NCBI GenBank assembly: GCA_022778745.1
Contig: JALFSR010000060.1
Location: 1 to 64,000, forward strand
Direction: 5' to 3'
DNA: 64,000 bases
DNA from: Clostridiales bacterium
GTDB lineage: Bacteria > Bacillota > Clostridia > Lachnospirales > Lachnospiraceae
The notes under the pieces are model-generated. The model made no database searches. It saw only the letters and a list, made by a program, of their open reading frames with translations, and had not been told where the DNA came from. The position numbers were made by a program, and so were the translations under genes. This document shows positions 1,243 through 46,817 of the stretch, piece after piece. How positions within the stretch are numbered: position 1 is the first letter of the stretch; each line of letters starts with the position of its first letter.

Positions 1243-1731
1243 TTATAAATTTATAGCACGTTGTTCCATCCGCATATTTGATATTATCGCAGGTTTCTTT
1301 ACAAAAATTAAAATTCCCGTCCAACGATACCTCGCAATAAACCATTTGCGTTTTGCTCCATCCAAAAACTGCTCTGGCTTCAATGTTATAATTCCGACTG
1401 CAGGATCTGCGATGACAATTTTCTCTCTCGAACGCTCATATACAACTACATAATGTGCCGCCCCATTTTGAAATTCAACAAGTGCAATACACGGCAGTGG
1501 ATAATCACTAAAAAAGCAATCCCGTTCTCCCCTCACTGCTTCTGCTTCAAATCCCAACGTCTCAATTGCCGTCACCATCTCCTCGAGATTCGTTCCTCTT
1601 CTTCTATCTACACCTACGATATTACACAGAGATTCATACGGAACAACACAATTATGAAAATTTAGAATCATAGAAATACAGGCAACTCCACAATCCGTAC
1701 GACGACGCTGTCTCGTAAATGGAACAATCAC
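1243..1731 (-). CDS. stand-alone C39 family cysteine peptidase (double-glycine leader peptidase domain without transporter)
   Basis: VPFTRQRRRTDCGVACISMI (oxyanion Gln, catalytic Cys), NGAAHYVVVY (His), IADPAVG (Asp). Track ORF begins at GTG 1758; in-frame GTG at 1731 overlaps the peptide stop. Confidence 0.8.
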   Translation of the reverse strand: MIVPFTRQRRRTDCGVACISMILNFHNCVVPYESLCNIVGVDRRRGTNLEEMVTAIETLGFEAEAVRGERDCFFSDYPLPCIALVEFQNGAAHYVVVYERSREKIVIADPAVGIITLKPEQFLDGAKRKWFIARYRWTGILIFVKKPAIISNMRMEQRAINL

Positions 1732-1850
1732 GTCATCCAATAGCCAGTTAAGAGCCACATTAAGAGGCGGTCTAATTGTTGAAGCTGAACATTATAAACA
1801 CCTCCATAAGTTTTTTTCATTTCATTTTGCTTTAAGCTAATAAACTTCAT
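1728..1850 (-). CDS. double-glycine-leader peptide precursor (40 aa), not in the ORF track
   Basis: Reverse complement: MKFISLKQNEMKKTYGG|VYNVQLQQLDRLLMWLLTGYWMT*. RBS AAGGAG 7 nt before ATG. Leader has F-15, L-12, E-8, M-7, G-2, G-1. The TGA overlaps an in-frame GTG of the C39 ORF (GTGA). Confidence 0.7.
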   Translation of the reverse strand: MKFISLKQNEMKKTYGGVYNVQLQQLDRLLMWLLTGYWMT

Positions 1851-1987
1851 CTCGTTTCTCCTTTTCTCTTTGTTTTGTTCAGCTTACAATGATTCAAATC
1901 GCTTCTCAACAAATCAAGGATTATTTACAAAAAAGTGATGCTAATTCGCTAAATTTATGCTAGTATAGGTTCAGGTGGGAGGTAACT

Positions 1988-3313
1988 ATGAATTATTTAA
2001 ATCTTATTTTTCAAATTTGTGCGGATGAACTGTACTTTTTTACTTTTATACTATTTATGGATTCTAAATTATTAAAAAATCATTTTCGGATTTCTTTTTT
2101 ATTCTTTCAAGTAGCCATTTTATTTTATCAACTTGGCATACTGCGTGCTTTTCCATTTGGAATGATTTTTTTAATTATTATTCCTACTTTTTATATAAAA
2201 TTGATTGAAAAACAGAAATTTAAGCAATCTATCTGGATTAGTATTCAATTTATTGCAACGCATTATGTTTTATCCCTTATAATAGGAATATTGCTATTTT
2301 TTGTAGATTTTCATAATGCAATTGTCCCTAGCCATTATCAGAATTTTATCTATCATAATGCTGAATATTACTCGCTCAAAGACATTTTTGTTTCTTGTAT
2401 TGCAAGCATTATCCTTATGATATGGCTTAGCCGCATGCGTTTAAAGCAGCTTCGTTGTAAGAATCATTATGATCCAATGACATATACTGTTCTCTTTGTC
2501 ATTGCTACTTCGATATTTATATTGACGTACTTATTTTTATACGGAACGAAACATTTACAGCTGGATGATATTATTTTGATTTCTGTCATATTTGTTGTGT
2601 CGATTTTACTTGTTATGCTTTGGATTGTAAATAAGATTGTTTTGACTATTCAAAATCAATATGCGCTAGAACAGCAATTAAGAAAAAATGAAATGGATCG
2701 AAATTATTACGATGCTATTTCGGATTCATTATCCAGACTGTCGAAGCTTCGACATGATTTTAAAAATTATCTTGTTATTTTACAGCAATACTTACTAGAC
2801 GGAAATTATACATCTGCATTCTCATTTATTTCAGAAATTTCGGAGAAAACTGTAAATCCACTGAAAGTCATTATGACTGGCAATCAGACAATCTCAGCAA
2901 TTTTAAATACAAAACAAGATGATTGCCAGAAAAATAATATTGATTTTGACATAAGCATTGACTTTGATAGAATCTTCACTTTAACAGATTTAGATCTTGT
3001 TGCATTATTCGGCAATTTGCTCGACAATGCAATTACAGCATCCAAAAAGCTAGATAATGACAAACGCTATATTCATCTTTCCATTACTCAGATTGATTCT
3101 CATCTCTGTATTCTTTGCGAAAACAAATTCAATGGAGAAATCAAAGAGAAGAATGGAAAATTAATCTCCACGAAAGATTCCAGTGAACATATGCCACATG
3201 GAATCGGCATGTCAAACATGGAAGAAGTCATTATGAAAAACAATGGAAACTGGCGTTACCATTATACTGATCATTTATTTACAGTAGAAATTATGATTCC
3301 AAATTATAACTAA
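1988..3313 (+). CDS. membrane sensor histidine kinase with GHKL ATPase domain (AgrC/ComD-like)
   Basis: Multiple N-terminal TM segments; H-box region LRHDFKNYLVILQQYL; N-box ALFGNLLDNAITA; GIGMSNMEEVI. RBS GGGAGG. Confidence 0.85.
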   Translation: MNYLNLIFQICADELYFFTFILFMDSKLLKNHFRISFLFFQVAILFYQLGILRAFPFGMIFLIIIPTFYIKLIEKQKFKQSIWISIQFIATHYVLSLIIGILLFFVDFHNAIVPSHYQNFIYHNAEYYSLKDIFVSCIASIILMIWLSRMRLKQLRCKNHYDPMTYTVLFVIATSIFILTYLFLYGTKHLQLDDIILISVIFVVSILLVMLWIVNKIVLTIQNQYALEQQLRKNEMDRNYYDAISDSLSRLSKLRHDFKNYLVILQQYLLDGNYTSAFSFISEISEKTVNPLKVIMTGNQTISAILNTKQDDCQKNNIDFDISIDFDRIFTLTDLDLVALFGNLLDNAITASKKLDNDKRYIHLSITQIDSHLCILCENKFNGEIKEKNGKLISTKDSSEHMPHGIGMSNMEEVIMKNNGNWRYHYTDHLFTVEIMIPNYN

Positions 3314-11108: not shown

Positions 11109-12041
11109 GTGATGTCTATGAAAGCAGCAATTTACTGTCGACTTTCTGTAGAAGATGATGGTAAAACAAATACAATGAGCGAAAGTATTAAAAATCAGCA
11201 GCTCCTTCTTTTAGATTATGCAAAGACCAATCATTACGAGCTTTTTGCTATATATGTAGACGAAGATTATTCTGGTCTTGACCGTAACCGTCCTGCATTT
11301 GTGCGAATGTTAAACGATGCAAAAGCCGGATATTTTCAAGTTATTTTATGTAAAACACAGTCTCGCTTCACACGAGACATGGAACTTGTAGAACGCTATC
11401 TGCATCACTTATTTCCACTTTGGGGAATTCGATTTATCGGAGTCGTTGACGGAGTAGACACATCGGAACGTCAAAATAAAAAGGCTCGCCAAATTACAGG
11501 CTTAATTAATGAGTGGTACTGCGAAGACCTCTCCGACAATATTCGAGCTGTTTTTCAGAAAAAGATGCAAGATGGTCAGTTCATCGGTTCCTTTGCCTGC
11601 TACGGCTACAAAAAAGATCCTGCCGATCATCATCGAATTATTATTGATGAACCTGCAGCCACTATTGTACGAACAATCTACCATAACTACTTATCTGGAA
11701 TAGGTATGACTGCCATCGCCCGTCAATTAACTGCGGAAAATATTCCACCTCCATCCATATACAAAAAACAACAAGGCTTAAAATTTTATTCCCCTTACAG
11801 TAGTCCCATATGGAGCGTCAGTACTATCAAAAATATTTTAAAAAATCCGACTTATACAGGCACACTTGTTCAAGGAAAAGAGAAAAAAGTCAGCTATAAA
11901 AGCAAAAAAATGATCCATCTTCCTCCTGAATGTTGGATTCAAATTCCAAACAACCATCCCGCAATTATTTCAGAACATATATTTAAACAAGTACAGTCAC
12001 GCTTTTACGCAAAACAAAACAAAAAAAATATCTCCGTATAA
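11109..12041 (+). CDS. recombinase family protein (serine recombinase, short C-terminus)
   Basis: AAIYCRLSVEDD resolvase start with Ser/Arg motifs; recombinase domain GFACYGYKKDP...IKNILKNPTYTGTLVQGK; ends at about 310 aa without a long zinc-ribbon/coiled-coil tail. Confidence 0.85.
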   Translation: MMSMKAAIYCRLSVEDDGKTNTMSESIKNQQLLLLDYAKTNHYELFAIYVDEDYSGLDRNRPAFVRMLNDAKAGYFQVILCKTQSRFTRDMELVERYLHHLFPLWGIRFIGVVDGVDTSERQNKKARQITGLINEWYCEDLSDNIRAVFQKKMQDGQFIGSFACYGYKKDPADHHRIIIDEPAATIVRTIYHNYLSGIGMTAIARQLTAENIPPPSIYKKQQGLKFYSPYSSPIWSVSTIKNILKNPTYTGTLVQGKEKKVSYKSKKMIHLPPECWIQIPNNHPAIISEHIFKQVQSRFYAKQNKKNISV

Positions 12042-45664: not shown

Positions 45665-45915
45665 GGGTCATTTACCCAATTCCAGACATCACATACTTCT
45701 ATATAATTTCTCTGCATCGGTCCAATATTTTTTTCATATTCCTTTAGTGCTTCTTCACGCATTGCTGCACATTCTTTGTAGTAGCATAAAGCTTCTTTGT
45801 CACAAGGATGCGTGTCAAGAAACAAAACTGCCTCATCCACTGCAAAACTCGTTTCATTCAAGCGATTTAGAAGAGCTTTTCTTTCACTCATTGACACCTG
45901 CACCCCCTTGCACAA
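45634..45915 (-). CDS. cotJB: spore coat protein CotJB
   Basis: LLNRLNETSFAVDEAVLFLDTHPCDKEALCYYKECAAMREEALKEYEKNIGPM...WPWEKGGNC. Confidence 0.92.
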   Translation of the reverse strand: MCKGVQVSMSERKALLNRLNETSFAVDEAVLFLDTHPCDKEALCYYKECAAMREEALKEYEKNIGPMQRNYIEVCDVWNWVNDPWPWEKGGNC

Positions 45916-46817
45916 AATCCAATTTCAAATGGTTTATCTAATTCTTCAAAAACCGTTCCAATTTGAAATCCCTTTTCCATATTCATTAGCATCCGAAAAC
46001 ATTGCCATGGAACATATGTCATACCAATAGGGCTTTCCTTCCACTCATCCTTCTTACACGGATAACAGCAATCTTTCTCTTTGTCACAGCCGCATCCTGG
46101 CTTTTCGTGCTTATCATCACATGGTTTTGACTTCTCTTTACAGCCGCATCCTGACTTTTCGTACTTATCATCACATGGGTTTGACTTCTCTTTACAGCCG
46201 CATCCTGACTTTTCGTACTTATCATCACATGGTTTTGATTTCTCTTTGCAGCCGCATCCTGGCTTTTCGTACTTATTATCACATGGTTTTGATTTCTCTT
46301 TGCAGCCGCATCCTGGCTTTTCGTACTTATCATCACATGGTTTTGATTTCTCTTTGCAGCCGCATCCTGGTTTTTCGCATTTATTCTCACAACATGGCTT
46401 TGATTTTTCTTGACAGCCCCATCCTGGCTTTTCGTGCTTATTTTCATCACATGGGTTTGACTTCTCTTTACAGCTGCATCCTGGTTTTTCGCATTTATTC
46501 TCACAACATGGCTTTGATTTTTCTTGACAGCCCCATCCTGGTTTTTCGCATTTATTCTCACAACATGGCTTTGATTTTTCTTGACAGCCCCATCCTGGTT
46601 TTTCACACTTATCCTCACCGCATGGTGTTGGTCTTTCACATCTGTTTTGAGAATTTTGCTGTTGTCTGCAGCGACCGCAGCCAGTATTTTCTTCTCTCAT
46701 ACAGAAATTGTTCGTGTTTACTCTATTTAAACCACCCCGCATCCCTCTGCCGTATATTGGCATAAAAGGATTTCCATACATGCGGCTATTATTTTTTCTT
46801 CCATAATAACATTCCAT
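45888..46817 (-). CDS. cotJA: CotJA-domain protein with large N-terminal Cys/Lys/Pro-rich tandem repeats
   Basis: C-terminal IGMTYVPWQCFRMLMNMEKGFQIGTVFEELDKPF CotJA motif; overlaps cotJB. Confidence 0.88.
   Translation of the reverse strand: MECYYGRKNNSRMYGNPFMPIYGRGMRGGLNRVNTNNFCMREENTGCGRCRQQQNSQNRCERPTPCGEDKCEKPGWGCQEKSKPCCENKCEKPGWGCQEKSKPCCENKCEKPGCSCKEKSNPCDENKHEKPGWGCQEKSKPCCENKCEKPGCGCKEKSKPCDDKYEKPGCGCKEKSKPCDNKYEKPGCGCKEKSKPCDDKYEKSGCGCKEKSNPCDDKYEKSGCGCKEKSKPCDDKHEKPGCGCDKEKDCCYPCKKDEWKESPIGMTYVPWQCFRMLMNMEKGFQIGTVFEELDKPFEIGFCARGCRCQ
46085..46611 (-). repeat. 54/57-bp coding tandem repeat (about 9.5 units)
   Basis: 4 x 19 aa (C/HEKPGWGCQEKSKPCCENK type) then 5 x 18 aa (YEKPGCGCKEKSKPCDDK type) plus a partial unit. 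Confidence 0.93.

Follow-up and report, generated by a model that had tools for sequence, protein, structure and literature searches.

Does the 40-codon reading frame that precedes a free-standing C39 peptidase gene encode a secreted peptide, and if so, does this peptide act as a signal or as a bacteriocin? We addressed this question for a 64-kb stretch of DNA (64,000 nucleotides of contig JALFSR010000060.1 from a Clostridiales bacterium; hereafter the window), for which a sequence-only reading had proposed a "secreted signal or bacteriocin-like peptide" coupled to the C39 enzyme. The locus comprises the following features:

1243 to 1731, minus strand: standalone C39 peptidase (PF03412), 162 aa from the likely GTG start at 1731, with a reading frame extendable to GTG 1758
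1728 to 1850, minus strand: double-glycine (GG) leader peptide precursor, 40 aa, ATG at 1850 and stop TGA at 1730-1728, with orthologues in two species
1731 to 1799, minus strand: predicted mature peptide, 23 aa, VYNVQLQQLDRLLMWLLTGYWMT, as released by the putative cleavage
1800 to 1850, minus strand: leader, 17 aa, MKFISLKQNEMKKTYGG, assigned from the sequence and a three-species comparison
1858 to 1863, minus strand: Shine-Dalgarno sequence AAGGAG, 7 nt ahead of the peptide ATG (GGGAG in two sister species)
1905 to 1942, minus strand: 38-bp block in the peptide-kinase intergenic region, almost invariant across three species amid diverging flanks
1988 to 3313, plus strand: ComD/AgrC-like GHKL sensor kinase, 441 aa (PF14501, E 3.6e-21)

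The minus-strand frame translates as MKFISLKQNEMKKTYGGVYNVQLQQLDRLLMWLLTGYWMT followed by its stop codon and was present exactly as the sequence-only reading had claimed, together with the ribosome-binding site at the proposed distance and the overlap of the peptide TGA with an in-frame GTG of the C39 frame, which takes the form GTGA. Of the 807 small ORFs in the 64-kb window (20-90 aa), the peptide ORF alone matched the full leader pattern (-15/-12/-8/-7/GG), compared with 0.15 such ORFs per 64 kb expected by chance (order-1 Markov shuffles). Since this search pattern was fixed after the motif had been seen, the count is supporting only, and conservation is the stronger test.

Orthologues occupy the same place in Clostridiales bacterium CHKCI001 (MSFVSLTKNEMQKTYGGVYDVQLRQLDRLLMWLLTGYWME, 80% identity) and Candidatus Fimimorpha faecalis (MNFVSLTENEMQKIHGGVYDVQIRQFDRLLMWLLTGYWME, 70% identity). 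The GTDB genus CHKCI001 now bears the name Fimimorpha and was described, within the Lachnospiraceae, from metagenomes of the chicken gut (PMC8035907). All the leader residues to which the sequence-only reading had pointed (F-15, L-12, E-8, M-7 and the GG pair) are invariant in the three species, as is the end of the mature peptide, DRLLMWLLTGYWM, and the predicted product is kept at a short 23 aa after GG. The order of peptide, C39 and kinase genes is also identical. A dN/dS near 1 was not observed: across the trio, the ratio was 0.06-0.16 for the peptide, 0.18-0.19 for C39, 0.08-0.11 for the kinase and 0.04-0.05 for a LytTR regulator encoded elsewhere in the genome (see below), values indicating that all four genes are under purifying selection in the three species. 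Substitutions in the peptide showed a third-position excess (5/4/14 and 7/4/18 by codon position; chi-square p 0.019 and 0.004), and protein-level change was lower in the peptide (dN 0.12-0.15) than in the adjoining C39 gene (dN 0.27). Where C39 probably starts, the two frames share only a few nucleotides, too short an overlap to account for the conservation of the peptide. Judged by this comparison, the ORF is a real, conserved GG-leader peptide gene that is absent from the annotation. The peptide was seen in three related species only; no homologue outside the genus was found among 397 family genomes, and congeneric sub-threshold matches (E 0.07-0.8), all of them short or interrupted, were disregarded. 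The earlier proposal of a conserved peptide coupled to a C39 peptidase was thus borne out by conservation, selection and gene order, and its interpretation as a whole found partial support.

The C39 protein matched PF03412 with E 8.7e-30 and 103.7 bits (cut-off 22) and retains the active-site residues Q17, C23, H102 and D118 (numbering of the 171-aa ORF). Its start is more likely the overlapping GTG 1731 than GTG 1758, because the two sister species have an ATG there (TAATG) and because peptide coding accounts for the conservation seen in the 27 nt upstream of it. In all three species the ORF stops just past the domain and lacks the transmembrane (TMD) and nucleotide-binding (NBD) domains, and no transporter remnant was found downstream. 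Neither another C39 protein (PF03412 search) nor a C39-ABC exporter was found in the window's genome, which is 93.8% complete. The nearest C39 domains elsewhere in the family are parts of C39-ABC exporters, nearly all of full length, and the simplest history suggested by these sequences is the truncation of an exporter to its protease domain in an ancestor of the three species. Other short C39 ORFs of the family (in G113, G123, G280 and G355, and a second copy in G338) looked like contig-end pieces, split exporters or other arrangements that do not share the window's layout. The window's genome encodes six ABC half-exporters, none of which could be tied to the peptide locus. An AlphaFold model of the C39 protein (three sequences) reached a pLDDT of 60.9 and was set aside for low confidence. 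In another family genome, G015, a C39-ABC gene beside GG peptides (L017 7474-8283, G015:C28) encodes a truncated protein of 269 aa and precedes a pyrE-like gene, and G366, of the same genus, carries a full-length C39-ABC gene. This points to exporter truncation on more than one occasion.

The GHKL kinase is encoded divergently from the adjoining peptide gene, has a hydrophobic N-terminal half and intact H- and N-boxes, and is 75% and 73% identical in the two sister species. With a threshold of E ≤ 1e-40, a search of the 397 family genomes with the kinase alignment returned only five hits from other genera. Two of these (G338 and G170) have a GG peptide and a C39-ABC gene divergent from the kinase, which is exactly the window's layout. 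In G015 a GG peptide is likewise divergent from the kinase, and a bacteriocin-like gene and the truncated C39-ABC gene lie further on. The locus of G174 is cut by a contig end that leaves peptide and C39 genes out of view, with promoter repeats and an ORF start visible, and G162 holds a kinase-regulator pair only. The short peptides beside the relatives' kinases have 17-23 mature residues, and the G170 leader, FRSLTSDEMENINGG, closely resembles that of Ca. F. faecalis, FVSLTENEMQKIHGG. A GHKL kinase fragment on another contig of the window's genome (G000:C29; L077 524-1544) adjoins a transposase-like ORF of the OrfB/TnpB type on the same strand, which suggests that this kinase gene was interrupted by insertion.

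The window's kinase has no linked response regulator; the genome encodes four LytTR regulators. The regulators beside four of the related kinases best match one of them, G000:C24:16910-17698 (41, 42, 33 and 32% identity; next best ≤29%), and from this correspondence the C24 regulator is the likely partner. Its counterparts in the two sister species show 89% identity, and nothing comparable turned up in the five other genomes filed under the genus. Peptide, C39, kinase and regulator co-occur in three of the eight members. We discounted this co-occurrence as support for the pairing, as the other five members are only distantly related and have no close copies of genes in the neighbourhood either; a neighbouring MoxR-type gene, for instance, is 83% identical within the trio and at most 53% in the other five. 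The pattern is thus clade-level and constitutes weak evidence of partnership, not independent evidence. Directly upstream of the C24 regulator we noted an HPr-like ORF of 75 aa (L073 7657-7883), close enough for a shared transcript.

Promoters of pheromone, bacteriocin and regulator genes in four Lachnospiraceae genera carry direct repeats, ACCAAATAGCAC-N9-ACCAAATAGCAC, with a 21-bp period, typically about 7 nt before a -35-like box. The sites are:

L017, 6127-6159 and 3880-3912: repeat sites
L140, 8056 (minus strand), 3949 (minus strand) and 10804 (plus strand): repeat sites
L143, 10274 (minus strand) and 13415 (plus strand): repeat sites
L166, 7942-7974: repeat site

These repeats are likely the LytTR binding site of this regulator subfamily. 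They were not recognisable in the window's intergenic region (score -2, versus 34-43 in the relatives), where a diverged site is possible; the conserved 38-bp block is a candidate regulatory site.

We propose that the ORF encodes the precursor of a secreted pheromone of the ComC/BlpC/PlnA type, in a circuit that retains only the protease domain of its former exporter, a reading to which we assign a probability of about two in three. GG pheromone signalling through such kinases is established for ComC/ComD and BlpC/BlpH (PMC7595303). For the present locus, the steps of cleavage, export and receptor binding, as well as the partnership of kinase and regulator and the targets, are inferred, and the circuit would operate as follows. 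The 40-aa precursor and the C39 peptidase would be translated as a coupled pair, and the peptidase would cut after Gly-Gly to give the 23-aa hydrophobic peptide. An ABC exporter without a C39 domain of its own, encoded elsewhere, would take the peptide or its precursor out, and the peptide would then bind to the GHKL kinase encoded divergently, at its membrane portion. The kinase may phosphorylate the unlinked C24 regulator, which in turn may control target genes and perhaps also the promoter region between peptide and kinase. The export step is left unexplained because no C39-ABC exporter was found in the genome; the earlier note mentioned neither this nor the missing ABC part of the C39 protein. 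Tentatively, with odds somewhat below even, leader removal may be uncoupled from export, a soluble cytoplasmic C39 protease maturing the signal and a C39-less transporter exporting it. In pneumococcus, ComAB makes up for a broken BlpAB (PMC4739728, PMC7595303), but the window's genome yielded no second C39-ABC. Further points count against the pheromone reading. The relatives' LytTR repeats are not recognisable in the window, the regulator is unlinked, the peptide is known from three related species only, and no target genes were identified. Leaders of ComC/BlpC-type precursors have hydrophobic residues at about -4, -7 and -12, and position -4 is threonine in two of the three species, the window's included, and isoleucine in G004; LahT150 was reported not to remove leaders without three hydrophobic positions (PMC10885120), and other C39 enzymes may differ.

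A GG leader and C39 processing are common to pheromones and bacteriocins, so the peptide could also be a small secreted bacteriocin matured by the C39 enzyme, in which case the kinase would control its production upon some other signal. Bacteriocin-like GG peptides do occur in related loci of other genera, and the predicted mature peptide is hydrophobic and contains tryptophan. Its net charge, however, is 0 to -1, its sequence has no GxxxG motif, and there is no immunity-like gene next to it, the peptide-C39 unit holding no further ORF. The description of the product as amphipathic in the sequence-only reading did not hold up, as its helical moment was no higher than that of shuffled peptides (p about 0.25). 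Moreover, it is the short peptide that lies on the kinase side in the relatives, and the longer glycine-rich, bacteriocin-like GG peptides sit elsewhere in the G015, G338 and G170 loci. We consider the bacteriocin alternative unlikely. The evidence favours the pheromone because of the divergent GHKL kinase and the unlinked LytTR regulator, neither of which had entered the earlier note; of its two suggestions, the signal was thereby strengthened, and the bacteriocin-like peptide is the weaker for want of an immunity gene and of GxxxG.

Much the same low probability attaches to the idea that the locus is the decaying remnant of a bacteriocin quorum-sensing system which has lost exporter and bacteriocins and is listening-only or non-functional, as was once proposed for blpA-broken pneumococci. 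This would account for a C39 protein that equals only the first domain of the exporters in the closest relatives, for the lack of a bacteriocin gene and of canonical LytTR repeats at the locus, and for the parallel truncation in G015. It is difficult to reconcile with purifying selection on all four components in three species, with intact reading frames and catalytic residues, and with conservation of the peptide itself, which a listener would not need; the cheater reading of the pneumococcal strains has itself been contradicted by export through ComAB (PMC4739728). Least probable, and in our view very improbable, is that the GG pair is coincidental and the frame is a short ORF with a membrane-active or regulatory role and no connection to C39 cleavage, such as a translation-coupling leader ORF. 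The hydrophobic C-terminal half and the stop/start overlap with C39 would fit such a role. Against it, F-15, L-12, E-8, M-7 and GG stay fixed in a leader that varies elsewhere, other genera have a comparable leader at the equivalent site beside C39-ABC genes, and conservation extends beyond length or RNA to the amino acids.

Should leader removal indeed be uncoupled from export, fusion of protease and exporter would not be obligatory for GG signals, and the locus raises the testable question whether maturation and export of such a signal can dispense with a C39-ABC transporter. It offers, from a chicken-gut lineage, a 23-residue candidate signal, its likely receptor and its likely regulator, as well as related loci for comparison. 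In CHKCI001 the predicted mature peptide would read VYDVQLRQLDRLLMWLLTGYWME. A literature search on GG pheromones in Lachnospiraceae gave nothing specific, and peptide signalling in this dominant gut family appears to be little described. Elsewhere in the window we observed two further features:

11109 to 12041: serine-recombinase-like ORF of 310 aa, short for a large serine recombinase and lying amid housekeeping genes, possibly a mobile-element remnant
45888 to 46817: Cys-rich repeat protein with about ten KPGCGCKEKSKPCDDKYE-like units

Among known systems, PCAT1, ComA and LahT share with the window's C39 protein a domain with catalytic Cys, His and Asp and a Gln six residues before the Cys (sequence matches of 71, 43 and 40 bits, respectively). 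The window's protein differs from them in having no transmembrane or nucleotide-binding domain and in stopping at the domain boundary. With ComC-ComD-ComE and BlpC-BlpH-BlpR of streptococci, the locus shares a short GG-leader precursor, a C39 processing enzyme, a GHKL membrane kinase adjoining the peptide gene and, with the C24 protein as the candidate, a LytTR-type regulator. In contrast to ComC/BlpC, its C39 enzyme stands alone and no C39-ABC exporter turned up in the genome, its regulator is unlinked, no bacteriocin or competence targets were identified and promoter repeats are not recognisable in the window. The locus is accordingly a variant of the ComC/BlpC-type system and not a plain member, because both a C39-ABC exporter and recognisable LytTR repeats were looked for and not found. 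The Lachnospiraceae loci that combine kinase, GG peptide and C39-ABC gene (G338, G170, G015 and probably G174) differ from it by a C39 domain within an ABC exporter (truncated in G015), by bacteriocin-like peptides and by ACCAAATAGCAC promoter repeats 21 bp apart. They share with it the kinase subfamily, the divergent GG peptide and a related regulator and, in G338 and G170, a C39 gene that follows the peptide on the same strand, as in the window.
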